This document shows, one piece after another, positions 17,401 to 57,296 of a stretch of 64,000 nt of DNA (position 1 is its first letter; every line of letters starts with the position of its first letter). Where the stretch lies: positions 53,191,169 through 53,255,168 of the forward strand of contig OX485806.1 of assembly GCA_950295325.1 (NCBI GenBank), written 5' to 3'. The stretch comes from Polytrichum commune. Taxonomy: Eukaryota > Streptophyta > Polytrichopsida > Polytrichales > Polytrichaceae. The notes under the pieces are model-generated. The model did no database searches, had not been told where the DNA came from, and was given only the letters and a program-made list of their open reading frames with translations. The translations under genes were made by a program, and so were the position numbers.

Positions 17401-17790
17401 ATAGATTTGTCAAATGAATTATAAATTCAGGAACTCATGTTTTAGAAATGATCATTCAAGCACGGAATTTGATTGATAAACCTAAAATATATTTTATTGA
17501 TAAAATAATTCAATTTATATATTTGGGCAAAAATTTGAGTTGTTGGGCTTATAAATGAATGTGATTAGCAAGAAATTTGAAATGGTTGGGGGAGAATGAA
17601 GTGAAAACATGATGGATATTTTTATTGTAATTATTTTGTTAATACATTGTAGAAACAATTTAGGTCGATTGACTAAAAACCATTGTTTGTTATAAATTGA
17701 CCAAATATGCTTATAAATGACAAAATAATACTAAAGATAATGTCAAATTTGGGTCATTGTAGAGCTCAACTACTTCCAATTGTTCCAAGG
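14419..17790. other. AT-rich spacer, no gene recognised
   Basis: Several 60-100 codon ORFs exist on both strands (for example 15122-15433 minus and 15797-16012 plus), but none shows a motif I recognise. At about 16480-16550 the phrase ATCTGATATTTGAA recurs three times as a short local repeat. Confidence 0.35.
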
Positions 17791-18438
17791 TGTCGTGTAA
17801 ACTAAGATCGTTAAACACAACAGATCGAGTGTCGTTGTCAACATCAATTAGCAAAATAAAATAACAAACTAAAATGCTAAACAACCACCTCTTCAAGATG
17901 AGGGTTTTTCTCTCCAAGCTTAAGAAACTAAAATGTCTTCTTACAAAGCTTAAGAAACTCTGAAATTCACACACAAGAGTCAAGCTATCTCTCACTCCAC
18001 GAAGGGAGAATCCAAGAGTGCAAGTGGTGGAGAAAGAATGCAAAGGCTTTACTCATAATCTACTACACCATAGCCATGAGAAAGCAACAACAAGCTCTCT
18101 CTCTCTCAAAACACACTCACAAGACTTGACTTGACAACAATGGCAAGTCAAGAGGCCTTCCTCTCCATACAACCCCAATCCTATGTGGAGTTCATCCATG
18201 GAGTGGATGAACAACTAACTAGGACTCCCAATGGAGTCCGTTACTCATCCCAACACACATGGACTCCTAATGGAGTCCATTTACTCCTAAATTGACATAA
18301 CTTAGCCCCCGATGTCACCTCACGTGACAGCTGTCGTGTAAACTAAGATCGTTAAACACAACAGATCGAGTGTCATTGTCAACATCAATTAGCAAAATAA
18401 AATAACAAACTAAAATGCTAAACAACCACCTCTTCAAG
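17791..18438. repeat. 107-bp direct repeats bracketing the left terminal repeat
   Basis: 17791-17897 and 18332-18438 are the same 107 bp with one visible difference (GTGTCG versus GTGTCA). They start TGTCGTGTAAACTAAG and end CCTCTTCAAG. They flank 17898-18331, which holds the left terminal repeat of the methyltransferase element. They are far too long to be an LTR-element TSD. A purine-rich tract on the minus strand (CTAGTGGGGGCA, 18439-18450) abuts the right copy, so the repeat may be part of the original 3' LTR that was duplicated or rearranged. Confidence 0.8.
17898..18329 (-). repeat. Left (3') terminal repeat of the methyltransferase element
   Basis: About 432 bp collinear with 38007-38438, with six differences by eye, five of them transitions. 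Both contain a CT-rich stretch and the tip TCACCTCACGTGACA, itself partly palindromic (TGTCACGTG on the other strand). The first few bases of the right copy (TGTCAAGT) are replaced here by the end of the 107-bp repeat. Confidence 0.8.
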
Positions 18439-18762
18439 TGCCCCCACTAGCAGATAAGGAGCCCCTCCAATCGGCTAGGAACAAATACACTCATTGGTAG
18501 AGTTGTTGAACATGATGAAGTTGTTGCTACATCTATACATATTTAATTGGTTAGTAGTAATCGAAGGAATTAAACTCGTGATTGACAAAGTAATCCAAGA
18601 ACTGTAGGCTGGGTGCAATGTGACCCCCATCCTTAATCGCCTTCAACAATTAATGTTGAATTCTTGGATAACTCTTTCAATGTGGTCTTAATTCCATAAA
18701 ATTTCCAACCAACTAAATAACAACTTCACCACTAAAACATGTGGTAAACATCCACAAAATTT
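18439..18762 (-). other. 3' untranslated end with candidate polypurine tract
   Basis: Between the PHD stop codon and the terminal repeat no ORF is seen. On the minus strand CTAGTGGGGGCA (18439-18450) is the best candidate polypurine tract for plus-strand DNA priming. Confidence 0.4.
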
Positions 18763-19275
18763 TCAATCATGACCATTAACGGCCACGGAATGAGAGGCTT
18801 TCCGACGACGAGGACAAACCCAATTGCCAGAAGGAAGAATAAAAAGGGGAGGTGTCAAACATGCCATGTGCCATCCACGTTGACATTGGTCGCACAATAA
18901 CATTGTTGCAGCTTCTTTCTTCTCTCCACAAACATAACAAGGCAGACCCTGTGGTACAACCGCCAACTCGGGATGCATAGAGCCGTCGATGGGAAGGTGA
19001 CATGGAGTACAATTCTTTGAATGCTCACGACATTCCCGTCCATCTTTGCCTTCAAGCAATAATATACCACTTGGCAAGACATCTTTTACCCGCAAAATCG
19101 TGCGCCCAGCCTTGACATCCAATGTCGTAGGCGCCTCCCGTTGCAAGTAAACATAATCCCCCTTGGAAAATCTACGAACCTGAGGTCGATAAGCTCCACT
19201 GCGGATCCGGGCATACCGTAATGTATCACGATGTTGAGCAATATTTAAGTTCTCCATAGCCATAGGCATGGCCTT
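18763..19275 (-). CDS. Integrase C-terminal SH3-like tail and PHD finger
   Basis: The frame continues from integrase through one TAA (19276-19278) and ends at TGA (18763-18765). Numbering from 19269, residues about 30-92 (RRFSKGDYVYLQ, TILRVKDVLPSGILLLEG) fit the SH3-like tail that follows integrase in gypsy elements. Residues 111-152 form a PHD finger: C111, C114, C126, C129, H134, C137, W150, C152, with the typical LLCDQCQRGWHMACL core. The eighth ligand, expected three residues after C152, is Arg, so one zinc site is incomplete. PHD fingers commonly read the histone H3 tail. In an integrase they could steer insertion to a chromatin state, as chromodomains are thought to do in chromoviruses; that role is inference. 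Confidence 0.85.
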   Translation of the reverse strand, partial: KAMPMAMENLNIAQHRDTLRYARIRSGAYRPQVRRFSKGDYVYLQREAPTTLDVKAGRTILRVKDVLPSGILLLEGKDGRECREHSKNCTPCHLPIDGSMHPELAVVPQGLPCYVCGEKKEAATMLLCDQCQRGWHMACLTPPLFILPSGNWVCPRRRKASHSVAVNGHD

Positions 19276-20229
19276 TTAGAAGAACGTTGCTCGGTCATGA
19301 AGACATTGAGCCCAAACATCTGGATCATCCAAGTTTACCACGGGAGCCAATTTCTCTCGCACCGAGCTAGGTAAAATTGGTTCCCGTCCATGCAAGAGTT
19401 GGTAAGGACTATAGGATGCCAAAGATGCTTGCCTGCTGAAACGATAACCCATTGCTATCCATGGTAACATCAAGTCCCAATCGCGATGGTTGCCATGAAG
19501 CAATCCATACTTCCGCAAACCGCGCTTAACCGTCTGAACAACTCGTTCAGCTAAGCCATCTGCCTCAGGGTGATCTCTGGAAGTTGTCCGATGATCAATA
19601 AAAACCTTGGTACACAAAGCCTCGAAAGATCCAAGGAATTCTCTCCCTTGATCCGTCAACACCTCTGCAGGTGCTCCAAACCGTGCCAAAACTCGATCAA
19701 GAAATGCCATAGCCGCCAATTCTGAGGAATTTTGGGGAAGAGCCACGAGTTCAATCCACTTACTAAAATGCTCCACCATCACAAGCACATACTTGGAACC
19801 ACATGGAGTGATAGTAAGCGGTCCGACAAAATCCAAAGACCAACAATATCCCAAGCCCATAATAGGTAAAGGCTGAAGTTGAGGTGACAAAGTATTAAAA
19901 CTTGATATGACCCGGTCACATACTTCACACCGAGAAACATAAGTGGCAACCTGTTGATACATACCAGTCCACCAATATTGGTTGCGCAACATAGAGTGCG
20001 TCCTTCGCACTCCAAAATGTCCAAGCTCCTCGTGCATTCGCCGCACCAAAGAAGCTATTTGATCTGGCCTTGGAACGATGCGCCTCGTTCCGTTCGGCCA
20101 TACACGAAATAACAAACTATTTGCCCAACGAAACCTTGTTATCCGGTGACTAACTTTATCTCGCTCCGTAGCAGATAGTCGAAGAGGAAATATCCCTTGT
20201 TGAAGTTTGTACAAGACCGCCTGGTCTTC
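19276..20229 (-). CDS. Ty3/gypsy integrase of the methyltransferase element
   Basis: A 312-codon frame read from 20214, in phase with the RT upstream, from which it is separated by one TAG (20230-20232). The N-terminal HHCC zinc domain is visible (H61 and H66 in HEELGHFG; C96 and C99 in RCEVC). The catalytic triad is intact: D128 in SLDFVGP, D188 in LTDQGREF and E223 in GLAERVVQ. The 35-residue D-E distance is the standard spacing. The domain would insert element cDNA into the genome. It ends at TAA 19276-19278, after which the tail and PHD finger continue in the same frame. All key residues are retained although the RT is dead. Confidence 0.93.
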   Translation of the reverse strand, partial: EDQAVLYKLQQGIFPLRLSATERDKVSHRITRFRWANSLLFRVWPNGTRRIVPRPDQIASLVRRMHEELGHFGVRRTHSMLRNQYWWTGMYQQVATYVSRCEVCDRVISSFNTLSPQLQPLPIMGLGYCWSLDFVGPLTITPCGSKYVLVMVEHFSKWIELVALPQNSSELAAMAFLDRVLARFGAPAEVLTDQGREFLGSFEALCTKVFIDHRTTSRDHPEADGLAERVVQTVKRGLRKYGLLHGNHRDWDLMLPWIAMGYRFSRQASLASYSPYQLLHGREPILPSSVREKLAPVVNLDDPDVWAQCLHDRATFF

Positions 20230-21941
20230 CTACACATCACTAACAACGAGAGATTTATCAACCTCCTCATCTTGTTCTTCTACAAGGATCTCAGCAGCCA
20301 ATCCCGACATCATTGTGAGATATATGGCAGCATGCCAACCCGGCACTGCCTCATGATCACAATCTCCATGCCACCTGGCTCCAGTTAAATCCTCATCTGA
20401 AGGACTTGGATTGCGAAACAATCCGTCTGCATCCAAGTTGGCAATTCCTGCTCGGTGAACAACTTCAAAGTCATATTCATGAAGTAACAATGCCCACCTA
20501 GCAAGTTTCCCGGTGAGCTTATCTGATTCCATAAGCCATTTTAAAGGCTGATGATCAGTCACCAAAGTGAATTTTTGCCCATACAAATAAGGTCGAAAAT
20601 GTGCAATGGCCCAAACGGCCGCCAAGGCCTCGCCTTCATAAGAAGAATAATTAGATTCAGCACTATTATTGCTTCTAGATGCATAAGCCACCACATATTC
20701 TTTTCCCTCTTCATCTTTCTGTGTCAATACCGCTCCCAATCCCACTGCACTCCAATCCGTGTGCAATTGAAAAGCTCTAGACACATCCGGGCGTCGAAGC
20801 ACTGGCGCTGAACCGAGCCTCTGCTTCAATGTATCATATGCATGTTGTTGTTCCCGACTCCAAATCCATGGTTGGTCTTTCCCCGTAAGAATGGTAAGAG
20901 GTTTGGCAATCAAACTAAAGTTTTTGACAAACCTCCTATAATAATTTGCCAATCCTAGAAATGCACGAAGCCGTTGTACATCACTAGGTGCGGGAATTTT
21001 GTGCAAAGCATCCACCTTCGCCTGTTGCACACCAAGACCGCCATGAACAATCATGTGGCCTAAATAGGGCAATTGATCATGAAAAAACTTACATTTTTCA
21101 TGATGTAAACGGAGTCCCCACCGTTGAAGTCGTTCAAATACCGCTTGTAAATATCTCACATGATCCTGTGGACTATTACTAAAGATGATAACATCATCAA
21201 TGTAACATCTAGCAAACGGCAAACCAGCCAATAATTGGTGCATCACCCGCTGAAATTCAGGTGGTGCATTCTTAAGACCAAATGGCAGAAATTTCCAATG
21301 ATAAAGTTGATCCTTGCCATCTTTATCAATTCCCCAAAATGCGGTCTTCACCCGATCACCTAACAACAAAGGTAATTGGTGATAACCAGACCTCAAATTC
21401 AGAGTGCTGAAGATTCTAGAAAATCCCAGTGCATCAAACAACTCCTCCGGCATCGGCATTGGATATTGATCTGACTTGGTCTTGCGGTTGACTGGACGAT
21501 AATCACCACATATCCGTTTTTCCGTCCAGTTGCCAAAGATATCCTTCTTTGACGGCATAACCATGGCACAAGCATACTCTCCATTGGAGAGTTCAATCAA
21601 TTCCGCTGCCAATAACTCTTGACATCGAGTTTGAACACCCAACCTTTCAGAGGTACTAAGTCTATACGGCCGTCTGAAAATAGGGTGGTCGTCCTCGAGT
21701 TGAATACGAACAGGTTTACCTTTATATCCTTCAAGATCATGAAGACTAAAGGCAAAACAATTACGGTAAGAACGAATAAATACCCGTACCTTTCGTGCTT
21801 CGGCACCAGTAAGCTTTGGCCCCACTTCAATTGGCCAATCGTTAGACTCCGTGGTTCCTTCTTCATAGAATGATTGCCACTTGGTGCCAGCATAGCCTGT
21901 GATTGCTAGTCCGTGGAGAGGGCAACACCTTTGGCCCCATC
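20230..21941 (-). CDS. Reverse transcriptase and RNase H of the methyltransferase element
   Basis: The frame is open from the base after a TGA at 21940-21942 to TAG 20230-20232, overlapping the upstream methyltransferase frame by about 35 nt in the -1 phase. Numbering from 21825: RT motifs YRLSTSERLGV, ICGDYRPVNRKT, LPFGLKNAPPEFQRVM and YIDD (208-211) are present. The motif-A block reads STLNLRSGYHQ, where family members have Asp at residue 143, so an essential metal ligand is Asn. The thumb (LRAFLGLANYYRRFV) and RNase H follow, with D357, E399 and D424 visible. The motif-A change predicts an inactive polymerase in this copy. No canonical slippery heptamer is seen in the overlap. Confidence 0.93.
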
Positions 21942-22300
21942 ATCTGCATTTGAATCCAAATGCGTATCCTCTCCACTACAATCAGTTTGTGTAGCTAAAT
22001 AGCTACCCACATATGAAGTATCACCAAGAAATAGAAGTGGAAACATTTTATGGGCCTCCAACTTTCCAAAATCTTGGGCCAAAGCCGAAAAAACACGTTG
22101 GGCTCGAAGCTCTTCCGCAACATGAAGTTTCAAAGGAAATAATCCCTTGGTGTCATTGACCTCAATGTGATCCTTGGATTGCAGCTCCATTGCCCCCTGA
22201 CCATTGTTCTCTGCCCTCAGAGTAAGCAATTGGTCATCCATACGTTGTTGAGCAGCAAGACAAATTCCAATTATCCACACAATGCTATTAAGATCCATAG
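21906..22300 (-). CDS. C-terminal part of the methyltransferase polyprotein, beyond the nested insertion
   Basis: Downstream half of the frame broken by the nested element. When one CTTGC duplication and the insert are disregarded, the phase is continuous with the methyltransferase ORF at 33210-34854, and the junction falls in motif X (LLGQ on one side, AMDLNSIV on the other). About 130 codons follow with no recognised domain, ending in TAG 21906-21908. This segment links methyltransferase to RT. The RT frame starts within its last 35 nt in the -1 phase, compatible with a programmed frameshift or a simple indel. Confidence 0.8.
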
Positions 22301-22305
22301 CTTGC
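22301..22305. repeat. Target-site duplication CTTGC, left copy
   Basis: CTTGC here and at 33210-33214 flank the nested element exactly, next to TGTGAG and CTCACA. Confidence 0.97.
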
Positions 22306-24152
22306 TGTGAGGCCAAACCCCCCACCCTTAAGCGTCCGTAGTCCGAGTAGTGGGTTTGGGCTCACATTCCTCCGCGGTATTGGATTTGGACTTGGATGAG
22401 TCCATAGTGCAAGGTTCACCCTTCAAGTGGTCTTGGATTTAACTTTGGTCTTTGCTTCCTTTGTCTTGCCATCGCGAGAGTGCTCCACATTCTCCATTAA
22501 GTTGTGCACGTGGTTTATTTTTAAAGAGAGGATGCAAGTGTTAAAAAAAACACTATTCTCTATAGTCAATCTCAAATACATTTACTTGTGAAAGCCACAC
22601 ATAACACTAACTAGCATAATGTAACTAACTACTTGTCTATGAGCTAATTAGGTAGGCTATCTACTAAGCTCCTTCATGAACCCATCTCTTTACTTTCTAA
22701 TTACATAAACCTAGCTCCTTCATAAACCCAGCTCCTTCATAAACCCAGCTTCTTAGCTTCTAACTAAACAAACCCAGCTCCTTCATAAACCCAGGTCCTT
22801 CATAAACCCAGCTCTTTACTTTCTAACTAAACAAACCCAGCTCCTTCATAAACCCAGGTCCTTCATAAACCCAGCTCTTTACTTTCTAACTAAACAAACC
22901 CAGCTCCTTCATAAACCCAGCTCCTTCATGAACCCACAACTTTGTAGTTGTAATCCCCAACTACCTCACTAATTATTCAAGCCCTTAACTAATCTTCCTA
23001 CCTAATTTCCCTAATTCTACTAACAACCCCTTTCTAATCACACAATTCTTCTCTAATCCTAAAATCCTAAAATCCTAGAGAGGAGAGGGGGAGAGAGAAT
23101 TTCCTAACTTCACTAAGACTAACTAATCCACACAAGTATATTTTTGCACTCATCACAACATCAAGTGCTCAACTCTTAAACATGGAACTTGCAACCACGT
23201 GTATTCAAAACATGAACTTTAAGTACCACAAATTGGAATCATGAATTAACTTTAAAATCCTTCACGTCAACACTAATTCTACCAAGAGGTCAAGCCCTCT
23301 TCAAGGCTAACAAGCCTTGGCTCTCAAACTAAAAACTAAGCACACACATGTGCTCCAATATGGCTTCCCACACCCACACTTATAACTCGTGGGGTGCCTT
23401 GGAGCACAAAGGAAAGAGAGAGTGAGTGAGGGAAGAATGAGGGATTATATAGTAAGCTTGAGGGGGTGAGCACCCTCAAGGCTCACGATAAGCCCTTGAG
23501 ATTTCCTCCTACTTAGTAGGCGCCAATCCTATCTTCTAAGCCTTCCTCCCTCAAATGATCAACAAGGATCCTAATTCGAACATTTAACTAGCCTTGGCTT
23601 TCTACCTACCACACTTTACCAAACTTGGGATGCTTCAACCCAAACTTAGCCTCCTTCGCTTTCCGCCGCCATAACTTTCTCCCCTTACTTTCCCAAATCG
23701 TCGCTCACCACTCAATTCAAACCACGATGCTTAACTCGTGATTTGATTGGTGCTTTGAGAATTTGCTTATCCTCCACCTTGCATTCTTCCTTGGGCCTTC
23801 CCCATTAAGTGGCCATGATGAGGTGGTCCACTTGTGCGCTCCATGTGATCCTCCATTCATCCCAATTCGAAAGCACTTGCCTCTTGAGTCACTTTGGTTG
23901 TCTCCATCCATTTGTACTAGCCTACTCACTAACTACTCAATCCAAGTTCTCCTTACCTATCCTCATTCACTCAAATCCTTCCGAAGGTAAAAACACAATA
24001 ACAACTCACATCCTAGCCTCTTACAACATGGTACTTCTAAGACTAACATTTCACTCTTTTTATATTTTTGTGAAGTAACATGCTACTTCAAAGTGCATCA
24101 ACTAACGTTTCAAGGGTCTAAGACTAAATGTGGGCACCCTTTTGGGCTCACA
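22306..24152 (-). repeat. 3' LTR of the nested gypsy element
   Basis: 1847 bp, TGTGAG to CTCACA. It contains a minus-strand TATA motif (TACTATATAAT, 23444-23454) and an array of short tandem repeats. Small ORFs in it recur identically in the other LTR and are not genes. Confidence 0.97.
22661..22936. repeat. Short tandem-repeat array in the LTR (second copy at 31718-31993)
   Basis: Units of about 17 bp (CTCCTTCATAAACCCAG and variants GGTCCTTCATAAACCCA) are organised in a roughly 65-bp higher-order repeat that includes CTTTACTTTCTAACTAAACAA. The same array is present base for base in the right LTR, so it predates the last transposition. Arrays of this kind in LTRs often serve as promoter or enhancer modules; here that is inference. 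Confidence 0.85.
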
Positions 24153-24213
24153 TAATTGGCGACCATCGGGGGATGAATCCAAACATCTCTTGCTCCAAGG
24201 GTAAGTTGCCTAG
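24153..24213 (-). other. Internal end next to the 3' LTR, no canonical polypurine tract
   Basis: On the sense strand the bases before the 3' LTR read ATCCCCCGATGGTCGCCAATTA, not purine-rich. The related copy has an almost identical block (44641-44664). Read on the opposite strand the block begins TAATTGGCGACC, which looks like a PBS. Confidence 0.6.
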
Positions 24214-27200
24214 TCAAGCTCGGTACTCCTTACATCTACATCCCGATGTACGGGTAGGAAAGAGCTCACCATTCAACGTTTCCAATTGAATTGAATTATT
24301 AGGAAAGACCTCATAGACAAGGTAAGGTCCTAACCATACCGCATCGAATTTCGCCGGAAATTCAAGCTTTCGTGCGTCTTGAATCATGACCATCATTCCC
24401 GGTGTTAGGGCCCTTCTCTTATGTTGTTTGTCGAAAGTAATCTTTCTCCTTCTTTGGATTGCCTCAATATGTTGAGCCGCCATTCTCCTCCCTTCGTCAA
24501 GTGCTTCCAAATCGGTGAGTCGATTTCGTAAGGATTGACTTTCGGTAAGTCTCGTACTCACGGCCACCCTAAGTGACTCGACTTCATATTCGATTGGTAG
24601 TGTCGCTTCAAGACCATAGACTAAGGAAAATGGTGTAGCACGCGTAGTTACCTTATAGGTTGTACGGTATGCCCAAAGTGCCGCCGTTAGTTTCGTATCC
24701 CAATCCCGCTTCGAGTCTATAACCGTCTTGCGTAGTATACTTACCAAAATTCCGTTAACCCTTTCCGTTTGTCCATTGGTTTGTGGGTGGTAGGGAGTAG
24801 TCTTCCGGTGATCAATTTTAAATTTCTCTGTCATCTCTCGAATCAAGTCATTCAAAAAGTGAGTACCCCTATCGCTTACTAGGATCTTCGGCACCCCGAA
24901 CCGCGAAATTATGTTTTCGTACATAAATGTTGCCGCGTGTTCCGCCGTGTCGGTCTTCACCGCTTTGGCTTCCGCCCACTTGGTGAGGTACTCGGTTGCC
25001 ACCACAATATATTTCATTCCTTTTGAAGATTGGGGATGGACCTCACCCACATAGTCGATGCCCCATTTTTCGAAAGGAATTAAGGGTAATGATACATGTA
25101 AAGGCATCTCCATTCTAAGGTCGTTTCGGACATACCGTTGGCAAGCGTCGCATTTCCTTACATAGTCATGGGCGTCCTTAAATAGTGTAGGCCAAAAGTA
25201 GCCCGCTCTAAGTATTTTTTGCCCGGTGAGTTGACCCGAGAAGTGACCGCCGCAAGCGCTATCGTGGCAAGCGATTAAAATCGCTTCAACCTCCGTTTTT
25301 GACACGCATCGTCGTAAAATACCATCGGACCCCCTTCTAAACAACCTATGGCCCACTACAACAAATTGCCTACTATTTACCCTCACCTTCCTTCTCTCTT
25401 CTTTTGTCCACTCTTTGGGCAACTTGTGGGTTGTTAGAAATTCCACTATGCCCGCATACCACTCCGGTGTAGAAGTGACCACAAAGAGGCTATCATCTAC
25501 TAACATATCATTTACCGGATTTTTTCCTATCTCCTCCGACAACCTAGACAAGTGGTCCGCTTGTAAATGCATACGACCCGGTTTATATTCCACCGTGTAG
25601 TCGAATTCTTCTAATAACAAAACCCACCTAGCTAACCTACCACTTAACTCCGCCTTGTTAATTAGATACTTGATAGCCATGTGGTCAACAAAAAATACAA
25701 CCGGGTTGCACATGAGGTAATGCCTAAACTTTTTAACGGAAAACACCATGGCTAGGCACTCCCTCTCCGTTGTAGAGTAGTTTCTTTCGGCGGGGGTCAA
25801 TTGCTTACTCGCATAAGCTATAGGTTGATCCTTCTCTTTTTCTCCCGTTGCTTGACAAAGCGCACTCCCTATTGCCACATTACTAGCATCACAATAGACG
25901 TGAAAAGGTTTACCCCAATTGGGTGGTATCAACACCGGATAGGTGCTCAACCTATCCCGCAATTCCTCAAAGGCTTTTTGACAAGCATCCGTCCACTCGA
26001 ATTTGACATCCTTTTTGAGCAAATGGGTAATGGGCACCGCTATCTTTGAAAAATTAGGAATAAGTTCCCGGTACCATCCCACATGTCCTAACAACTTAGA
26101 GATCCCCTTGGAATTGGTTGGAGTTGCCAAGTCGCTTATGGCCGCAATCTTATCCGGATCGGGTTCTCTACCTTTCTCACTAACAACATAACCCAACAAC
26201 ACTCCCTTATTCACTCCCAAAAATGTCTTATCCGGGTTCAATGCTAACCTCATCTTCCTACACCTAACCAATGCCTCCCTAACACAATGTAGGTGATCAT
26301 CCACATTACTTTGTGTGCTAAAATCGTCCACAAAGACGGTCATGGATTTGAACAACAAGTCGGTGAAGATATACATTACTAATCGTTGGAAAGTAGCCGG
26401 GGCATTACATAACCCAAATGGCATCACTACCCACACAAAAGTACCCCAAGGTGTAGTAAAAGCCGTTTTATGGATATCTTGGAGGGCTATGGAAATTTGA
26501 TTATAACCCGCATACCCATCCATAAAGGTATATCGCGAATGACCTCCAACCTCCTCAAGCAACAAGGTGATAAAAGGTAAGGGGAAGTGATCCTTTTGTG
26601 TGCACGAATTCAATTTCCTATAGTCGACACAAACCCTTAATTTCCCATTTTTTTTCTTTACTAAGACCATAGGAGAAACCCAATCCGTGATTTCCACCGG
26701 CTTGATAAACCCGGCCTTCAATAACCTTTCCAATTCCGCTTTCACCAACAATTGCAATTGAGGATTCATCCTCCTCTCCTTTTGTCTAATTGGCCTCGCC
26801 CCCGGAATTAAAGGAATCCGGTGCTCTACCATTTCCCTAGGAATTCCCTTAAGCTCATCGTAGGACCATGCAAAAGTATCACTAAACTCATCCACCAAAT
26901 TGCTATACTCCCTAACCTCTTTCTCCCCCAATTTGGAGCCCATCTTCATTTGTCGGGTTTTTCCATTCTTTAATTTCACATCCACGTACCGCCAATCCGC
27001 TTCCGACACATGTGCTTGTTCCTCTTTGTTCCGATACCAATCGGAAGGCACATTGGGGTAATCTTTCACATCTTGACCTACAACTATCCCCGTAGACGTG
27101 GTCTTGAAATGTAAAGGCTCCTCCAATTTCGATGACTCAATAATCACATCCTCCTCTTGAGTCCCATCTACATGAATTAAACTAACCTCACCCTCTTCCA

Positions 27201-28953: not shown

Positions 28954-29388
28954 TCAACAAAAGGGATGAAATTCCTTCTTCTCTAAATTTTGGCCACCTT
29001 GCCCTCTAGGTTGTGGTCCTCTATTGCTTCCATTTCCATAGTGAGGTGGCGCTTGACCTCGTTGATTTTGTTGAGGTGGGTTACCGTTTCCTCTTTGGTC
29101 ACGGTTTTGTCCACTTCTACAAAATTGACGCGTGTGGCCCGGTTGGCCACATTGGACACACCATAATCCGGAAGAATGCCTACCCGACTCAACCGGGGGT
29201 GGAGGCCCCGGTTGTTGACTCCGGATCATTAATGACATTTGATCCGTGAGGCTTTGCATTTGTTTTATCATAGCCTCTTGGAATCCTAGTTGGCTAGCAC
29301 CTAGTCTTCTCTCAACCTCCTCCAAGTGTGGATCCGTTCTAGGGGCCGGTAGTGCCAAAAGAGGTGCCGGTTCCCTAACCGCTAAAGG
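28954..29388 (-). CDS. Gag C-terminal part with CCHC zinc knuckle, between two TGA codons
   Basis: In phase with the frames on either side. It carries a nucleocapsid knuckle CVQCGQPGHTRQFC (C-x2-C-x4-H-x4-C), followed by a Gly/Asn/Gln/Arg-rich stretch typical of RNA-binding gag tails. It is bounded upstream by TGA 29389-29391 and ends in TGA 28954-28956. Both stops lie one C-to-T change from CGA (Arg), as expected from decay of methylated CpG, though translational readthrough cannot be excluded. Confidence 0.88.
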   Translation of the reverse strand, partial: PLAVREPAPLLALPAPRTDPHLEEVERRLGASQLGFQEAMIKQMQSLTDQMSLMIRSQQPGPPPPVESGRHSSGLWCVQCGQPGHTRQFCRSGQNRDQRGNGNPPQQNQRGQAPPHYGNGSNRGPQPRGQGGQNLEKKEFHPFC

Positions 29389-30453
29389 TCAGGGACCGGT
29401 GTCCACAATGGCATATGGAATTTGGTTCTCATACTTAGCGGGTTCTACCGCTACCACCCTAGGGCGTATGGGGATGAATTGTGGGATCAATTCATCCTCC
29501 CTTCTCCATAGCCTTTCGTGATCTTTATCCAAGTTTTCAATATCTCTAGCCGCACGCTTGGCATCCGCCAAGGTCAAGGGATTCCTTTCTAGAACACCCC
29601 TAATAGTTCCGGACTTAAAAAACCCTTGAATGAAAAATTGCTTTAGCGTGTCGTCGTTGAGCATGGTACCCACAAATCTAGTGCACACTAAATCAAACCT
29701 CCTAATGTAAGCCGAAATTTCTTCCTCCCTTCCTTGCTTCAATGACGACAATGCCCTTAATGCGGTACTTTGACCCACTTCCGGCCTAAATTCGTTAAGA
29801 AACTCCCTTTGTAATTGTTCCCATCCCCTAAAATGTCCCTCGGCATGATCCCGATACCATTCATAGGCTTCCCCCTCTAGAGTGGTAGGAAACCACACTA
29901 ACCAATAACCCGGGTCGGTTATGAGGGAGCTAGCCAACCGTTCGATATACCGTTCCATGTGCCGAGAGGGGTCCTCATCCTTGGTCCCATAAAATTTAGG
30001 GAGATGAGATGGCATATCCATCGCCGCTAAATTTTGTGGAACCACAATTGGTAGGCCTCTTGGCCTAACCAATGGGTCTATTGGAGGTATAGGAGGTATG
30101 GGCGGAATTGGGGGTATGGGTGGTGGATCCATCCCCCGTTCCTCGGCCATGGTGACCGGTGAACTATTCAACAATCCCCTATCAACTTCTACCGGGAATT
30201 CTTCTCTAAGTGTGTAATTTTCCGAAGAAGTTTCACCACTCAATTTGGAGGGAGTGATCTCCTCTTCAAGTTGAGCTCCAAGTTCTAAGGTGTCTAGAAT
30301 TAACCTAGTCCTAGGTTCGACGTTCAAACAACTCTCTATTCTAACATTATCTTGTTCTAATCTATCACTGATTTTAGAGGACCGCCTCTTTCGAGTAGAT
30401 TTCTCTAGTCCTACTATCAAACTTGGTTTTTGTGAGCGAGTCCTACCTTGCAT
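29389..30453 (-). CDS. Gag capsid region of the nested gypsy element
   Basis: 354 codons from ATG 30453 to TGA 29389-29391. After a charged N-terminus and a PPIPPI repeat (about residues 112-128) comes the retrotransposon gag core: FYGTKDEDPSRHMERYIERL, then YEWYRDHAEGHFRGWEQLQ and EISAYIRRFDLVCTRF. This domain assembles the particle around element RNA. A leader of about 890 nt separates it from the PBS. Confidence 0.92.
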   Translation of the reverse strand: MQGRTRSQKPSLIVGLEKSTRKRRSSKISDRLEQDNVRIESCLNVEPRTRLILDTLELGAQLEEEITPSKLSGETSSENYTLREEFPVEVDRGLLNSSPVTMAEERGMDPPPIPPIPPIPPIPPIDPLVRPRGLPIVVPQNLAAMDMPSHLPKFYGTKDEDPSRHMERYIERLASSLITDPGYWLVWFPTTLEGEAYEWYRDHAEGHFRGWEQLQREFLNEFRPEVGQSTALRALSSLKQGREEEISAYIRRFDLVCTRFVGTMLNDDTLKQFFIQGFFKSGTIRGVLERNPLTLADAKRAARDIENLDKDHERLWRREDELIPQFIPIRPRVVAVEPAKYENQIPYAIVDTGP

Positions 30454-31340
30454 TCCATAAGAATCGATCGACCCTCACTTGACCACACATAATCCTAGCA
30501 ATTCCCCTCTTAATATTTTCACTTGTCTTGGTGTGGTTATAATTTTTTTAGGAGGTGAGGAAAAGAACCTGCAAGCCCACTTAGGTGAAAGAATCCCAAT
30601 AGGGGATAGGCATGTTCATGTTAATTTTTTGGTTAAGTCGGAGCATCACCTCCGCACCTTCCCGCAAATTAACACTCACCACAATACCGATTGTGAGGGG
30701 GTGACCTTCCGAGTAGATTATGTTAAAAGTCGAGGCTTCACCCTTCAACTTCTCACACCATCCACAATTCGGGAATTACCCTCTACAACGGATAACAACA
30801 ATCACGAGTACAAAAGGCATTCCTTAATTAGTTAATGAGTTCACTTTGAAGAAATAAACATACCTTGAGCAATCGCATCCCCCTGTGAGTTAGCACTCCC
30901 CTCAATCGTGACTCAATGTAACAACACCATAAACTTTGTGAAATATTAATTTAATCTAGAGCATGAAATGACAACTCCCAAAACTTTGAGACTCACCCCG
31001 AGGTGAGTGTCAAAGTTCAATGTCCTAAGGTGAATTTACCCTCTAATGTTTTAATGAGCTACTCGGTTATAGGTTCCTTTTAAGTTCTTAGCAAATCCCC
31101 AAAAAGGTTGAGGACGTACCTTCGCCGCGCTCCTTCCTCAAAAATGAATTTGCGTAATTGACAATGCAATTCATTCCAAGGAATAGTTGAAATACAATGA
31201 ATTCAAATGTAACCCAAAGAGAGAATACTTACCGAGTTTCGGGTGCTCCTTCCCTTCTCTCAAGTTTGTGTCTCCAATTTTTCCTAGTTGCCTCCAAGTC
31301 TCCTAGTCGCCTCCAAGTCTTGTAACTACCTTCCGCTTCG
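30454..31340 (-). other. 5' leader of the nested gypsy element
   Basis: Between the PBS and the gag start codon, with no minus-strand ORF of note. A 118-codon open stretch on the plus strand (30479-30835) has no motif and is antisense to the leader. The region probably carries packaging and translation signals, none of which I can point to. Confidence 0.5.
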
Positions 31341-31358
31341 CTCCCGGCGGACGCACCA
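31341..31358 (-). promoter_or_regulatory. Primer-binding site of the nested gypsy element
   Basis: On the minus strand, four bases after the 5' LTR, comes TGGTGCGTCCGCCGGGAG. It starts TGG, complementary to the CCA end of a tRNA, with a GC-rich continuation like an acceptor and T stem. The tRNA is not certain; a tRNA with a 5' end GCGTCCG would match. Confidence 0.7.
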
Positions 31359-31362
31359 ATTA

Positions 31363-33209
31363 TGTGAGGCCAAACCCCCCACCCTTAAGCGTCCGTAGTC
31401 CGAGTAGTGGGTTTGGGCTCACATTCCTCCGTGGTATTGGATTTGGACTTGGATGAGTCCAAAGTGCAAGGTTCACCCTTCAAGTGGTCTTGGATTTAAC
31501 TTTGGTCTTTGCTTCCTTTGTCTTGCCATCGCGAGAGTGCTCCACATTCTCCATTAAGTTGTGCACGTGGTTTATTTTTAAAGAGAGGATGCAAGTGTTA
31601 AAAAAAACACTATTCTCTATAGTCAATCTCAAATACATTTACTTGTGAAAGCCACACATAACACTAACTAGCATAATGTAACTAACTACTTGTCTATGAG
31701 CTAATTAGGTAGGCTATCTACTAAGCTCCTTCATGAACCCATCTCTTTACTTTCTAATTACATAAACCTAGCTCCTTCATAAACCCAGCTCCTTCATAAA
31801 CCCAGCTTCTTAGCTTCTAACTAAACAAACCCAGCTCCTTCATAAACCCAGGTCCTTCATAAACCCAGCTCTTTACTTTCTAACTAAACAAACCCAGCTC
31901 CTTCATAAACCCAGGTCCTTCATAAACCCAGCTCTTTACTTTCTAACTAAACAAACCCAGCTCCTTCATAAACCCAGCTCCTTCATGAACCCACAACTTT
32001 GTAGTTGTAATCCCCAACTACCTCACTAATTATTCAAGCCCTTAACTAATCTTCCTACCTAATTTCCCTAATTCTACTAACAACCCCTTTCTAATCACAC
32101 AATTCTTCTCTAATCCTAAAATCCTAAAATCCTAGAGAGGAGAGGGGGAGAGAGAATTTCCTAACTTCACTAAGACTAACTAATCCACACAAGTATATTT
32201 TTGCACTCATCACAACATCAAGTGCTCAACTCTTAAACATGGAACTTGCAACCACGTGTATTCAAAACATGAACTTTAAGTACCACAAATTGGAATCATG
32301 AATTAACTTTAAAATCCTTCACGTCAACACTAATTCTACCAAGAGGTCAAGCCCTCTTCAAGGCTAACAAGCCTTGGCTCTCAAACTAAAAACTAAGCAC
32401 ACACATGTGCTCCAATATGGCTTCCCACACCCACACTTATAACTCGTGGGGTGCCTTGGAGCACAAAGGAAAGAGAGAGTGAGTGAGGGAAGAATGAGGG
32501 ATTATATAGTAAGCTTGAGGGGGTGAGCACCCTCAAGGCTCACGATAAGCCCTTGAGATTTCCTCCTACTTAGTAGGCGCCAATCCTATCTTCTAAGCCT
32601 TCCTCCCTCAAATGATCAACAAGGATCCTAATTCGAACATTTAACTAGCCTTGGCTTTCTACCTACCACACTTTACCAAACTTGGGATGCTTCAACCCAA
32701 ACTTAGCCTCCTTCGCTTTCCGCCGCCATAACTTTCTCCCCTTACTTTCCCAAATCGTCGCTCACCACTCAATTCAAACCACGATGCTTAACTCGTGATT
32801 TGATTGGTGCTTTGAGAATTTGCTTATCCTCCACCTTGCATTCTTCCTTGGGCCTTCCCCATTAAGTGGCCATGATGAGGTGGTCCACTTGTGCGCTCCA
32901 TGTGATCCTCCATTCATCCCAATTCGAAAGCACTTGCCTCTTGAGTCACTTTGGTTGTCTCCATCCATTTGTACTAGCCTACTCACTAACTACTCAATCC
33001 AAGTTCTCCTTACCTATCCTCATTCACTCAAATCCTTCCGAAGGTAAAAACACAATAACAACTCACATCCTAGCCTCTTACAACATGGTACTTCTAAGAC
33101 TAACATTTCACTCTTTTTATATTTTTGTGAAGTAACATGCTACTTCAAAGTGCATCAACTAACGTTTCAAGGGTCTAAGACTAAATGTGGGCACCCTTTT
33201 GGGCTCACA
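31363..33209 (-). repeat. 5' LTR of the nested gypsy element
   Basis: 1847 bp, the same length as the left LTR and nearly identical to it. The minus-strand TATA motif lies at 32501-32511 and would drive transcription toward the gag gene. Confidence 0.97.
32501..32511 (-). promoter_or_regulatory. Candidate TATA box in the 5' LTR
   Basis: TACTATATAAT on the minus strand, within the 5' LTR and upstream of gag in the correct orientation. It is the best TATA match in the LTR. Confidence 0.5.
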
Positions 33210-34857
33210 CTTGCCCCAATAGGAAACGTCTCTGACCTTCCTGAAGCCCGTGAGCAGCCGTGGTACCTGTAAGAAAACCCATAGCGCGTTCTCGCTCATC
33301 TGGCGTAGGCTCATCATGAGTTTGGGATTTTGAATCCCAAACCATGCCAGGTCCACGAGATCGAAATGCAAAAGACTGTGGATATGTCACAAAAGTAGGT
33401 AGTGCACCTCTCGGAATGCCCACCTTGTTAATTAATGCAAATGGCAAGGTGTCATCCTTGGTAACTGCCAAGGAAACACGATGATCATCTAAAATGTCAT
33501 CCACCTTGCGATCCATAAGGCGGGGAATGCGGGCAATCGCCGCTGAAAGCACTCGAGGTGATACCAAGTCGGTCCAAAACCAACGAGGCCGATGAGCAAA
33601 GGATCCCAAAGATGCAGCATCCAGAAATGTTGGAGTACCCAGAATTTGGTTAATGTACTCACCATCCTTCACCACTTTGTGCTGGGTATCACCCAATAAT
33701 GGTACATTTTCGAAAATGTACCCTGGCGGAGTTGATTGGTGGGTAAACCACCATTGCGTCAATCGCATCAAATCCGCAAACAAACTAGACCTAGGATCAT
33801 CCAAACCCTGGCCAGTTCCTGGCCGCGAATGGCCTTGACAAGGCCATCCTGCAATAATCAAATCCACGTGGCCCAACCTTCTCAAATCCTCATCACTAAT
33901 CATAGTGACATCTTGAGGAAGTTGACCACAACATCCATGAATGGCAGAGGCTGACAATTGTGCGGGGTATCTCAACAACAATTGTTGGATGTGGTGTCGG
34001 ACGGCTCTGTTGGCTGCATACCCATTGTCCACATGAATATATCGCCAAACTGTAATTCCAGCTTCCAACACTGCCGCCAAACCTGTGCCAATGCCTCCAA
34101 AGATCTCCACAAGGACAATACCTTCAGGTGATGGTTGCCAACGAATGGGTTGAGCAAAAGAAAATGAGGATGAAGTTGGAGGTGCCTCTCCAAGCTCCAA
34201 ATCCGCTACAATGTGTTGACAATGGTCGGATAACTCCTTAGGAGTTCGCCATGGTGGAGGTGGATCCTTGAAATGTCGAGCAGGAATTTGAAAAGATGGT
34301 AAAAATTGTTGTTCTGCCGCATTACAAGTGTAGTCCATTGTTTCCTCCAATAAAACTGGAGCACAAGGCAAATCTGCAACTAAACCGCTGCAACCAAACA
34401 TTGCCTCCGCAATCATTGTCATAGCAGTGGCTGCAAATGTGACGGGAATAAATACCTTCCTGCCATCTCCAATGGACCATCCCGGTCTAATCCATGCCTC
34501 TTCCGTCCAATTATCCAAACCAAAGCCAAGTGGGTAAAGAGCTTGTTGACCAACAAGTATATCATAGTTGGTAGCATTAGTAACAACACACTTCATTGAC
34601 AAATGAGTGTAAGTAGGCCCTGCCCGCACATGAAAAATCAAACGTAGAGGTGCCTTGGTGTAACCTGTTGCACGTTCAGTGCCCCCTACTGAAGTCACAA
34701 TAGTGAATGGACAAGGATCCAAGCTTGCTGGCGTCAATCCAAGACTGTCAGCAAGTCCTTTGCCAATCATAACCGGTTGAGCACCGAAATCCATCATAAC
34801 TCTCAGTGGTGTAGCATGGATAGAGGGCATATCCGTGCGTGAAACGACAAACAAAGA
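33210..34857 (-). CDS. Retropepsin-like domain fused to a C5-cytosine DNA methyltransferase
   Basis: A frame of 549 codons read from 34854 (no ATG; in phase with gag, just after TAA 34858-34860). Residues about 15-110 resemble a retropepsin: RVMMDFGAQPVMIGK (D22) and DILVGQQAL. The active-site triad is DFG, not DTG or DSG. Residues about 245-549 carry the C5 methyltransferase motifs in order: I, EIFGGIGTG (250-258); IV, GWPCQGHS with catalytic C339; VI, FENVPLL (E382-N383-V384); VIII, HRPRW (421-425); a variable target-recognition stretch; and IX, ERERAMGF (520-527). Motif X starts LLGQ at the right-hand end and is cut by the nested element. The PCQ and QGLDDPRSSLF block looks closer to bacterial-type Dcm or DNMT2 than to plant DRM. 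It would transfer methyl groups to cytosine in DNA. It is uninterrupted, unlike gag. Confidence 0.95.
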
Positions 34858-35382: not shown

Positions 35383-36198
35383 CTACCACCACTCGTTGCT
35401 ACCACCACTCGTGGAGGCCACCGCATCTGCCAATGTTTGTGAGCGAGTAGAAGCCGCCGCCACCACCTCTCCAGCTGCTCCAAACATATATATGTGCGAA
35501 CCCGAGGTGCCACCACCCACATGCGGCTCAGAAATTTGAGCAAAAGATGCAGAAGATTTGAGCTTTTGCTCAAGCTCTGCCACCTTAGCCTCAAGACTCT
35601 GCTCCTTTGGAGACTTTCCAGTGACATAACTGGCAGGCCGCATCTCAGGATGAAGTTGGAAACAATGATCCACATCATGATTAGTGCCACCACAATGGTT
35701 ACACTTCAATTGTCTCTTCTTAGAATTGTCCCCTGCCTTTACTGGTTCCATCTTTTGTTTTAATTTTTCCAAAGGCTGAGTTTTCTTCTTCTTAGGACAA
35801 TTGGGATCATTCTTCGAATGGCCAGCTTCTCCACAACCCCAACAATGCAAAATCTTTTGCTCTTTGACGGGTTGAGTCTTAGCTAAACTACTAGTAGCTG
35901 TGACAATTCTTCTTGGTTTCGGACTCTCTGTCATCCAAGATACCATATCCGTGGCATCATGTTGGCAAAGAGCCCGATCACATCTCTCAACCACGGCAAA
36001 CGCTTGTGCAAGCGTAGCTCGGCCCTCGTAGTCGAGGATAATCCGAGGTGATGCCAACTCAAGTAGCCGCTTGTCAATCTTAAACAAAAAGATTTTAACA
36101 AGCTGACTCTCAGCAAAAACACCTCCCGACTCCACAGCAAATCGCGTGAGTCGCGTATACATGGTCTGTGGAGTATCATCCTTCTCTCGGCGGAAATC
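35383..36198 (-). pseudogene. Gag C-terminal half with two zinc knuckles
   Basis: In phase with upstream gag after TAG 36199-36201. It starts with the end of the capsid fold (TMYTRLTRFAVESGGVFAE, KIFLFKIDKRLLELA). Two knuckles follow: CWGCGEAGHSKNDPNC, with an unusual six-residue H-C gap, and the standard CNHCGGTNHDVDHC. A short heptad stretch (SLEAKVAELEQKL) follows. The domain binds element RNA and forms particles. It ends at TAG 35383-35385. Confidence 0.85.
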
Positions 36199-36892
36199 CT
36201 AGATGCGCTGCATCTGGTCTCGCCGAAACCCACCATACTCCACTTCCAAATGTGCGACAAATTCAGTAAGGGGATTAAACGGAGGTGGTGGACCAACAGC
36301 CGTCAATGCTGCCTGTGTAGCACGTGCCACCCGTGAAAGGGTTGCCGTGCTACTGCTAGCCACCATTGGCCCAAGTGCCAGTTCCGTGTCCTTAGACTCC
36401 GCCGGCGATTCCTCCTCCTTTAAGGTGGGTGGAGCTAAGGTAGCAACCGCCCCATCCTTAAGGGCTGAAATGAACTCAACCCGAGCCTCCCAATACTGCT
36501 CCACCTCCCGAATTTGTCGTTGATGACCCTCTGTCCAGCGTTCATAAGTTTGGAGTGCCTCATACTCCAAATGTTGAGGCATACCAATCATTGAAATTGG
36601 AAGACCTTTGGCGTTTCTCCTTAATCCAGGTACGAAACCGGAGTTTCCAATCGGGCAAGGAAATGCCCCCAGCTCGACCTGAAAACCGATCACGCACTGA
36701 ATTGTGGCGATCGTCCTCCATTTCGTCGAACGTGCCGACACTCCAAATCCGAAGCCTACTAGTAGTGTCCAACGCCGAAATAGGCTCAAAAGCCTCGTTG
36801 GTATCTACCTCTGGCTCAAGATTTGTGGTATGCACGTCCTCCAAGTAATCTGGTGATGGAGATCGATAATATCGGCTCCTAATTTGCACCAT
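36199..36892 (-). pseudogene. Gag N-terminal half, frameshifted
   Basis: It starts at ATG 36892 in one frame (to about 36560) and then passes into the frame used by the rest of the polyprotein (open 36789-36199), so one small indel lies near 36570-36620. The second part contains EALQTYERWTEGHQRQ, a Pro-rich PPPPFNPLTEFV stretch and the start of the capsid core. It ends in TAG 36199-36201, one C-to-T change from CAG. Confidence 0.75.
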
Positions 36893-37021
36893 AAAATAAT
36901 CACTTGAGTACCTGCACCTGTTGCGGGCTATTTAAATGGCAATCCCTTGCCAAATGCCAAGTGTTTATGCCCCCAGAATTCCAAAATTGTGCAAAGGTTT
37001 GAGATTGGTAATTAAAAAGAA

Positions 37022-37430
37022 AAATCAGCGTTGAAATGGCTCATTTCCAAGGTGATTATGGACTCCAATCAACAAACTAAGTGCACCAATGGACTCCTAG
37101 GAAGATTTCACACAAATTAGGCTCAAATTTCACTCCGTTCGGAGTTAATTTGCTCCCAAAAACAAAAATCAGCGTTGAAATTAATAAATTCAGCAATGAT
37201 TTTGAATTCCAATCAACAATCCAATTACACCATTGGATTCCTTGGCAAATTTCACTCCGTTCGGAGTTAATTTGCTCCCAAAAACAAAAATCAGCGTTGG
37301 AATTAATAATTTTAGCAATGATTTTGAATTCCATTCAACAATCCAATTACACCATTGGATTCCTTGGCAAATTTCACACAAGATAGGCTCAAATTTCACT
37401 CCAATCGGAGCTAGTATGCCCCCAAATTTG
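37022..37430. repeat. Three tandem units of about 120-145 bp in the leader
   Basis: Units start near 37022, 37165 and 37287, each with AAAATCAGCGTTG near the start and TTTCACTCC..TCGGAG near the end. The second and third are very similar; the first is more diverged. Apparent ORFs here come from the repeats. They lie in the 5' untranslated region of the methyltransferase element. Confidence 0.85.
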
Positions 37431-37556
37431 AACCTCAAAGTTTGTGAAAATTGGATGCCAAGTTTGAAAGGTGAAAGTAAAAATGTGAAAATAAAAATAA
37501 AAAATAAAAAATAGTTTTTTTAATTAAACAAAACCAAAAAGAAAAAGAAAAAGGTA

Positions 37557-37650
37557 AGGGCTTACCTTACCTGCCTGCCAGGGCCTGGCTGGCTGGCGCC
37601 CGGCCGACGCCCGCCCCCGGCCCGGGATCTGCCGCCGCCCGGGATTCAGA
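37557..37650 (-). other. GC-rich patch with candidate splice donor in the leader
   Basis: A very GC-rich island of CCGGGC and GGCCGG motifs stands out in AT-rich surroundings. On the minus strand it ends in GGCAGGCAGGTAAGGTAAG, a good plant 5' splice-site match, so the leader may be spliced. No acceptor was assigned. Confidence 0.35.
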
Positions 37651-37998
37651 ATTGGAGCTCCAGCCAAAATCCGGAGCGCAACCAAAATTAAAACTAAATC
37701 GGATTTTGATTGTGGTTTATGTTTGTATTTAAATTAAACTTTGCTTCACAATTTGCAAGCAAGAAAATGTGATTTGAGAATCTCGAAACTAAATGGAATC
37801 TCAAGATTCAAACATCAACAATTGAAGAAAATACAAGAGACAACAAAAGAAAAATGGGAAGATTTCTCTCAAAATCTTCTTGAGGATTGCAAGAAATGAC
37901 GAACTAAACTTTCAAACACTTGTATCACTCCTTTGCTCTCATTACTGGGCCATTCTAGCTCATAAATACAACCAAAAATGAAAAATTTGAACAATTGT

Positions 37999-38438
37999 TG
38001 TCAAGTATGAGGGTTTCTCTCTCCAAGCTTAAGAAACTAAAATGTCTTCTTACAAAGTTTAAGAAACTCTGAAATTCACACACAAGAGTCAAACTATCTC
38101 TCACTCCACGAAGGGAGAATCCAAGAGTGCAAGTGGTGGAGAAAGAATGCAAAGGTTTTACGCATAATCTACTACACCATAGCCATGAGAAAGCAACAAC
38201 AAGCTCTCTCTCTCTCAAAACACACTCACAAGACTTGACTTGACAACAATGGCAAGTCAAGAGGCCTTCCTCTCCATACAACCCCAATCCTATGTGGAGT
38301 TCATCCATGGAGTGGATGAACAACTAACTAGGACTCCCAATGGAGTCCGTTACTCATCCCAACACACATGGACTCCTAATGGAGTCCATTTACTCCTAAA
38401 TTGACGTAACTTAGCCCCCGATGTCACCTCACGTGACA
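37999..38438 (-). repeat. Right (5') terminal repeat of the methyltransferase element
   Basis: 440 bp starting TGTCAAGTATGAGGG and ending CCTCACGTGACA on the plus strand, matching the left copy with six differences. On the minus strand a TATA-like TGTATTTATGAG lies just downstream (about 37958-37970), so the full LTR may extend left of 37999, with the shared part being U3. No PBS is visible next to 37999. Confidence 0.75.
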
Positions 38439-57294: not shown

Positions 57295-57296
57295 TT

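Follow-up and report, generated by a model that had tools for sequence, protein, structure and literature searches.

A green-plant Ty3/gypsy retrotransposon family carrying a predicted DNMT3-class cytosine methyltransferase and an integrase-linked PHD finger

DNA methylation is a weapon of the host against transposons, and a retrotransposon family that keeps a complete-looking de novo methyltransferase offers a natural test of what such an enzyme is used for. This question is raised by a 64,000-nt stretch of the Polytrichum commune genome (contig OX485806.1, positions 53,191,169 to 53,255,168; hereafter the window), in which a Ty3/gypsy element encodes both a cytosine DNA methyltransferase (MTase) and a PHD finger. 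Is this pair shared by a family, or was it acquired once by a single copy? We find that a recently active retrotransposon family regularly carries both the MTase and the PHD finger in conserved form, and that the window copy is a dead member of it. All coordinates are window positions, and the features of the element are read on the minus strand.

The element, including a nested insertion, occupies 17788-38438 between terminal repeats that run from 38438 to 17788 and are flanked by CCTT, in agreement with the extent given in an initial annotation of the window made from its sequence. Its gag region consists of an N-terminal part in a broken frame (36199-36931; open reading frames (ORFs) 36560-36931 and 36199-36804), whose N terminus resembles relatives P0020 and P0022, and a C-terminal part (35383-36198) with CCHC-like knuckles recognized by eye, 45% and 69% identical to P0020 and P0022, respectively. 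An aspartyl protease region (34528-34857; PF13650 at 6.6e-4, under the curated cut-off), which also precedes the MTase in relatives, is followed by the MTase from motif I to the start of motif X (33208-34122), with PF00145 DNA_methylase at 1e-10 on amino acids (aa) 315-395 of the minus frame 33205-34857. A younger Ty3/gypsy element outside the family (22306-33209) separates this part from the remainder of motif X (AMDLN) and the C-terminal tail of ORF1 (21909-22305), which continue the frame, the tail matching P0002 and the public contig L030 (CADCWO010000201.1).

Beyond the stop codon of ORF1 lie reverse transcriptase (RT) and ribonuclease H (RNase H; 20473-21516; PF00078 at 4.8e-28, PF17917 at 1.1e-38; both within 20230-21936 by Pfam RVT_1 and RNase H matches), and an integrase composed of an H2C2 zinc finger and an rve (DDE) core (19567-20061; PF17921 at 2.7e-17, PF00665 at 2.6e-14; within 19276-20229). 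The integrase C-terminal region (18976-19275), 94% identical to L030, precedes the PHD finger in relatives, and the PHD finger itself (18808-18939) matches PF00628 at 1.2e-10 on aa 113-156 of the frame 18763-19275, where Pfam at E 0.01 finds no chromodomain. The resulting order of gag, protease, MTase, RT, RNase H, integrase and PHD is confirmed in L030 and places the element in Ty3/gypsy, with RT-RNase H ahead of the rve integrase and the protease, a weak match, upstream. Profile searches of the MTase and PHD regions thus return both domains proposed by the initial annotation in the order it had claimed, the MTase between protease and RT and the PHD finger after the integrase, and the motifs it had listed (I, IV as PCQ, VI as ENV, VIII, IX and the start of X) are all readable in frame.

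A profile of the MTase, built from 21 relatives, yields 57 structure matches at E up to 1. For the METHYLTRANSFERASE class, 29 distinct DNMT3A/B/C chains match first (1e-21 to 4.5e-18), followed by 4onj, which we take to be tobacco DRM (8e-12), HhaI/HaeIII (4e-8), DRM2 (3e-7) and DNMT2 (4e-6); none of the 57 bears the name DNMT1 or CMT. For relative P0002, an AlphaFold2 model reaches a mean predicted local distance difference test (pLDDT) score of 76.9, with the MTase core mostly above 90, and the best 50 of its 183 fold matches (E <= 0.001) are all DNMT3 entries, the top at 3.4e-17, with template modeling (TM) scores of ~0.8 by target for single-domain chains. By its best profile match and its unrearranged motif order I-X, the MTase of the family is assigned to the DNMT3 class. 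Across 139 stretches of 123 proteins, the catalytic Cys is present in 102 of 105 aligned stretches, the Glu of ENV in 104 of 108, and the Arg pair of motif VIII in 102 of 108 and 99 of 107. Neither an ADD nor a PWWP domain is found with the MTase.

The genome searched, a 407.8-Mb assembly of 64 contigs containing the window, holds 123 scored PF00145 matches (of 353 candidates; open frames up to 1386 aa), which may include host genes, and 150 scored integrase-PHD matches (of 563 candidates). Every tenth of the 150 integrase-PHD copies was taken with the MTase disregarded (n = 15), and the stretch upstream was read. MTase N-half sequence is present in 14 of these 15 blind-sampled sisters, exceeding 100 aa in 13 and reduced to a 31-aa remnant in L105, which also keeps part of the C half; the N half is unbroken and stop-free in 10 (the L105 remnant uncounted), and no MTase is seen in the stretch read in L101. 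Among 20 copies chosen by PF00145 score, 19 carry the PHD finger, L069 being without the integrase C-end and PHD. The 150 scored matches and the MTase frequency in the sample indicate that the family probably keeps the MTase in more than 100 copies in the genome.

Collected genomic copies were also used to examine the domain for purifying selection, as the initial annotation had suggested. The ratio of nonsynonymous to synonymous substitution (dN/dS) was estimated for the 30 copies with the best PF00145 scores, which form two subfamilies (19 and 11). Between subfamilies, where synonymous sites are near saturation and dN/dS values are rough, the MTase N half has a median of 0.146-0.147 (proportion of nonsynonymous differences, pN, 0.226), the preceding linker 0.27 (30 copies) or 0.37 (20 copies), and the tail 0.55-0.56; the C half equals the N half in pN, its synonymous sites being saturated. 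Corresponding medians in the 20-copy set are 0.107 for the PHD finger and 0.036 for RT. Within subfamilies, values rise to 0.39-0.41 (larger) and 0.22 (smaller) for the MTase N half and to 0.68 and 0.28 for the PHD finger, as expected because the copies are decaying. The comparison of the window with L030, in which the synonymous proportion (pS ~0.75) is saturated and pN alone was used, gives 0.183 in the MTase versus 0.31-0.32 in its flanks. Stops interrupt the MTase in 3 of the 30 copies, a count biased by picking on MTase score and unused as evidence. These rough dN/dS values indicate that the MTase and the PHD finger are under purifying selection. The long clean MTase frame that the initial annotation read as a sign of selection is no evidence by itself in a dead copy; the sister copies appear to show the selection that it pointed to.

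Are the two domains made as one protein? The single polyprotein of the initial annotation proves wrong, as gag-protease-MTase and RT-RNase H-integrase-PHD are two frames split by one UAG. The two frames of L030 (1162 aa with an open 5' edge, and 1047 aa) are in the same register with a single TAG between them. This stop stands in the context TAG-CAA-TCA in both L030 and the window (21900-21908), and in 30 of 30 genome copies the stretch compared contains TAG-CAR-YYA exactly once, at the equivalent position, in the versions CAATCA, CAATTA and CAGTTA. We take UAG-CARYYA to be the tobamovirus-type (tobacco mosaic virus-like) readthrough motif. Over its nine bases, identity between the subfamilies and L030 is 0.86-1.0, compared with 0.44-0.57 just upstream and 0.53-0.74 just downstream, in a profile that is anchored on the motif itself and reaches 0.77-0.93 in some bins further off. 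The motif persists although the encoded residue switches between Ser (TCA) and Leu (TTA), which suggests a constraint on the nucleotides. The aligned RT piece begins 147 nt past the UAG codon in 18 of 20 copies, with L073 and L074 differing and the window frame-shifted here; a frameshift between the two frames is disfavored, since they are in register in L030 and in these 18 copies. Judging from the stop context, the MTase would be made with Gag and the PHD finger solely on the readthrough product; with a single UAG dividing their frames, the two would share one protein only after readthrough.

A protein search with the window frame returns 32 relatives, including Marchantia and Sphagnum troendelagicum, and a search with the MTase part of Marchantia P0018 returns 67 proteins (itself included), among them many Marchantia proteins and others from Calypogeia fissa, Sphagnum fallax and the chlorophyte Monoraphidium neglectum. 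Nine of the 90 proteins of these two MTase searches extend to the integrase C-terminal region, and in eight the PHD finger comes next; the ninth, P0080, stops at the integrase C-terminal region. The integrase C-end and PHD of L030, used as a query, match 198 proteins of 604 candidates, including Klebsormidium nitens, Volvox, Tetrabaena, Astrephomene and Haematococcus; because the PHD is part of the query, its presence in these matches gives no frequency. Among the 119 new proteins of the best 120 matches listed, 39 are matched by the MTase profile, arranged as RT-RNase H-MTase-integrase-PHD (14), RNase H-MTase-integrase-PHD (4), MTase-integrase-PHD with RT not found (19) and MTase-RT-RNase H-integrase-PHD (2). 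The MTase is present in Volvox P0113, Tetrabaena P0116 and Astrephomene P0199 and is not found in the protein sequences of K. nitens P0182, Haematococcus P0111 and Volvox P0169; in the 80 of 119 proteins without a match, the MTase is either missing or encoded elsewhere, on a frame or stretch beyond these proteins.

Going by these proteins, the MTase is placed before RT in bryophytes and between RNase H and integrase in chlorophyte and metagenome proteins. A tree of 42 RT-RNase H-integrase rows recovers the same two groups, with P0104 and P0139 outside both. K. nitens P0182, which ends in a PHD finger, shares an RT-integrase clade with the bryophyte-side elements (SH-aLRT 92, 21 rows). In the MTase tree, the RNase H-MTase-integrase proteins fall within a clade of 32 (98), and the window, L030 and P0014 group together (99); both trees are quick ones with long branches, and the MTase-tree root is unsure, with DNMT3A itself on a long branch. 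L030 is filed under a Synechococcales cyanobacterium bin, but its element is of plant type, and the contig most likely represents plant DNA placed in the wrong bin; P0008, which bears the name Obscuribacterales, resembles this case. A bacterial or phage origin was rejected: L030 excepted, the viral and prokaryote collections yield short matches of 25-55% identity. IMG/VR, searched for ORF2, gives six stretches that fit the pattern and zero relatives.

The best 60 of 86 matches to solved PHD structures include PHF12, CHD4, WSTF, ubi-d4, KMT2D, ATXR5, PHF21A, KDM5B and UHRF1, several of which read unmodified H3 tails. Readers of H3K4me3 carry a cage Trp two residues before the conserved His, a position occupied by Gly in the PHD fingers of the window and L030. 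From these relatives and this Gly, our best guess is that the PHD finger would read the unmodified H3 tail. Elsewhere among the relatives, P0076 has a Tudor domain (PTM_DIR17) after the PHD finger, and P0117 and P0161 bear PF01585; certain elements may combine two or more readers of chromatin or RNA.

The ends of the element depart from an LTR (long terminal repeat) layout. Repeats A (438 bp) and B (110 bp) are arranged A1-coding-B1-A2-B2 in the window, with A1 (38001-38438) forming the 5' end, which begins TGTCACG, and B2 (17788-17897) the 3' end, which finishes CACGACA. A1 is 98.4% identical to A2 (17893-18329; 6 differences in 437 aligned bases), and B1 (18329-18438) is 98.2% identical to B2 over 110 bp. 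Directly 5' of B1 lies a polypurine-tract-like G-rich tract, GTGGGGGCA (18439-18450), with 5-7 G preceding CACTT in 10 copies and L030. The B1/A2 junction forms the palindrome GACAGCTGTC (18326-18335), each half of which is also an outer end of the element; it occurs once in the window and in 0 of 100 shuffles. The junction palindrome is also found in L030 and 12 of 20 copies, with one change in L067, and single-B copies are without it because no B1/A2 junction is possible there. A search with a junction 17-mer returned one contig, L035.

Eleven window-like copies end at the 3' side in B-A-B (seven), in a single B (three) or in a rearrangement (L071). In the second subfamily (nine copies fetched, six tested), all six have a 106-108 bp repeat in this position, spaced 414-443 bp, a count that rests on the 3' region. 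Both ends were found in 10 of the 11 window-like copies, the left end of L071 not being found, and all 10 show TGTCACG on the left, CACGACA on the right and perfect 4-bp target duplications (TCAT, TCAA, TCTC, AGTC, AGGC, ACTT, GTGA, GTAA, AACG and GAAG). Two identical full outer LTRs are absent from these 10 copies, which read A-coding-B-A-B (seven) or A-coding-B (three). In seven copies, A1 and A2 differ by 0-1.6% and B1 and B2 by 0-2.8%; the two duplications may therefore go back to the insertion event, and the family was active recently. That all 10 pairs of ends are halves of one palindrome and are accompanied by 4-bp duplications suggests integration from circular cDNA.

We consider it probable that the element belongs to a green-plant Ty3/gypsy lineage with a DNMT3-class MTase and an integrase-linked PHD finger, in which the MTase is produced at the Gag level and methylates cDNA, integration proceeds from a circle and the PHD finger guides targeting. 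This reading builds on the anatomy, conservation, rough purifying selection, recoding motif, repeat structure and ends with 4-bp duplications, from which we infer the steps of the mechanism. ORF1 would yield Gag-protease-MTase, and readthrough of the UAG a minor product extended with RT-RNase H-integrase-PHD. Because the MTase sits on the Gag product of ORF1, it would be packaged at the Gag level and meet the cDNA in the particle, methylating it de novo before or at integration. Reverse transcription would generate the B.A repeats, with the G-rich tract before B1 and A1 directly before the coding part. The cDNA would then be circularized, and the DDE integrase would cut the palindromic B/A junction after CA on each strand and insert the opened circle. 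Integrases remove a dinucleotide at linear ends; the cut after CA on both strands would remove GC. A two-repeat circle would give A-coding-B-A-B and a one-repeat circle A-coding-B. The PHD finger, standing after the integrase where chromoviruses have their chromodomain, would steer the integrase to nucleosomes, most likely via the unmodified H3 tail. The fullest form of this proposal, a DDE-integrase element that integrates from circular cDNA (GACA/GC/TGTC, the dinucleotide removed) to leave permuted proviruses, with a Gag-level MTase marking the circle and the PHD finger docking the integrase on H3, is offered tentatively, as possible rather than probable.

Several alternatives bear on parts of this reading. 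A single accidental capture of a host DNMT fragment, devoid of meaning, would fit a dead window copy with an interrupted MTase, and would fit L101, but it has next to no probability: capture in a single copy, which the initial annotation had tied to sisters lacking the MTase, is largely refuted by the 14 MTase-bearing copies of the blind sample, relatives occur in liverworts, Sphagnum and chlorophytes, and dN/dS is lower in the MTase than in its flanking parts. The MTase could instead be an RNA- or nucleic-acid-binding module for Gag or the particle, acting by RNA methylation or structurally, a reading with which its location on the Gag frame and its non-DNMT3 motif IV agree, and RNA methylation is discussed for LINE-borne enzymes by de Mendoza et al. 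(PMC5890265). We regard this as improbable, as the catalytic Cys, Glu and Arg are kept and DNMT3 is the nearest class, far ahead of DNMT2. A role in dampening or marking the element's own copies (host-friendly self-silencing), or in imitating host methylation so that the cDNA passes as self, was proposed by the same authors (PMC5890265) and is in keeping with selection on the domain; it seems somewhat unlikely here given undepleted CpG in the window copy.

The repeat structure has a serious rival explanation that falls a little short of even chances, in which DIRS-like reverse transcription, and not the cutting of a conventional two-repeat circle, produces the split repeats, and the A-coding-B copies are B1/B2 deletions. 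The split direct repeats of the window, A-coding-B-A-B, are in the DIRS arrangement, no primer-binding site was identified (in the copies inspected, TGG lies not directly after A1 but ~10-40 bases on), and a deletion would not alter the ends and duplications. The rve integrase, the protease-like domain and the 4-bp duplications, which are untypical of DIRS, speak against it; in place of the tyrosine recombinase of the DIRS order, Pfam finds rve in the window.

Returning to the cDNA-methylating, circle-integrating lineage, a number of observations weigh against it. Motif IV reads PCQ (Q in 101 of 105 aligned stretches, N in 2 of 105), where DNMT3A has PCN, and its Pro is replaced by Glu in 23 of 108. 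The CpG observed/expected ratio is 0.68-0.71 in the window copy versus 0.53-0.61 in its flanks; CpG is thus undepleted relative to the flanks, and the footprint that heavy self-methylation would leave is not seen. The proposed PHD ligand is a guess based on resemblance. The target duplication of the window copy is imperfect, with CCTT on both sides and one extra T on the left. L030 has B1 and A2 with 5'-leader-like sequence, and no second B, after A2, which could reflect assembly of collapsed repeats. Deletion between B1 and B2 could account for the three A-coding-B copies. In yeast, no methylation by the Klebsormidium enzyme was obtained, a result that its authors call inconclusive (PMC5890265).

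The precedent that the initial annotation named in charophytes and dinoflagellates is real: de Mendoza et al. 2018 (PMC5890265) describe LINE and DIRS elements with a Dnmt from Symbiodinium, and KnitGypsy-Dnmt3 from Klebsormidium. The K. nitens element likewise has a Dnmt3-class MTase in an LTR gypsy element, combines DIRS-arranged repeats with gypsy domains (figure 4 legend) and is under purifying selection (Ka/Ks < 0.2), as the window family appears to be (PMC5890265). The window family is of the same type, with a Dnmt3-class MTase, a gypsy coding region and DIRS-like repeats. It differs in that its MTase lies on the gag-protease frame before the UAG, whereas Dnmt3 lies in the Pol ORF of KnitGypsy-Dnmt3; in its PHD finger after the integrase, a domain that does not appear in the main text of that paper; and in its hosts, land plants and chlorophytes rather than Klebsormidium (PMC5890265). 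SymbioDIRS-Dnmt3 also carries Dnmt3 in a retrotransposon with A-coding-B-A-B repeats, and two of its copies methylate CG in yeast, but it has a tyrosine recombinase and dinoflagellate hosts, in contrast to the DDE integrase of the window family (PMC5890265). Chromoviruses, like the window family, place a histone reader in the gypsy polyprotein, and the MAGGY chromodomain binds H3K9me2/3 and is proposed to target integration (PMC3350952). They differ in having a chromodomain where the window family has a PHD finger, MTase and split repeats. The stop context is that of tobamovirus-type UAG-CARYYA, with CAATTA in part of the window-family copies, but here the UAG would separate Gag-protease-MTase from RT-integrase-PHD, unlike its tobamovirus use. 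DNMT3 enzymes with an ADD domain, their H3 reader, are alike in catalytic class and in the coupling of de novo methylation to H3 reading; the window family differs by its PCQ, by the lack of a detected ADD or PWWP and by a reader on another protein product.

A 2025 survey (PMC12344493) repeats streptophytes and dinoflagellates as hosts, and Morozov et al. 2019 (PMC6338049) give absence from land plants such as tracheophytes. In the titles and abstract openings of the open-access papers listed by our searches, we find no bryophyte or chlorophyte gypsy element with MTase and PHD and no DDE integrase with split repeats, the KnitGypsy legend (PMC5890265) being the sole mention met. MTase-bearing gypsy elements have been known since 2018; the land-plant and chlorophyte spread, the PHD finger, the readthrough and the junction ends appear to be new within the open-access literature searched. 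What the enzyme does for the family is testable because Marchantia, with relatives annotated as proteins, is a genetic model. The split repeats, together with palindromic ends and target duplications, bring circle-junction integration back into consideration for DDE integrases. If true, a circle-integrating DDE element would represent a third integration layout beside LTR and tyrosine-recombinase elements, and epigenetic marking would be built into the particle.

The window copy itself is damaged at several places. Frame shifts break gag, a further frame shift separates the ORF1 stop from RT, in-frame stops interrupt ORF2 at 20230-20232 and 19276-19278, and the final zinc ligand of the PHD finger is lost by Cys-to-Arg replacement (CPRR; CPRC in L030), while the aligned key MTase residues are intact despite the dead copy. 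MTase motif X is cut because the separate gypsy element inserted inside it, between LLGQ and AMDLN. The LTRs of this nested element (22306-24152 and 31363-33209) are 1847 bp long with two mismatches, and the target duplication GCAAG stands on either side. Its gag-pol frames lie within 24214-30474, and each LTR contains 63-bp tandem repeats (22604-23006 and 31661-32063). The 5' untranslated region of the host element holds a 122-bp tandem repeat at 37124-37377.

Outside the element, a degraded gypsy element on the plus strand (39700-45000) is ~71-72% identical to the nested one. A ~975-bp repeat occurs four times in both orientations at 94-99.8% identity (12924-13901, 40140-41108, 56312-57295 and 62567-63549), the last two of which (99.8%) resemble the LTRs of a young plus-strand element. 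Tandem repeats of ~230 and ~460 bp, 76-83% identical, lie at 58818-59969.

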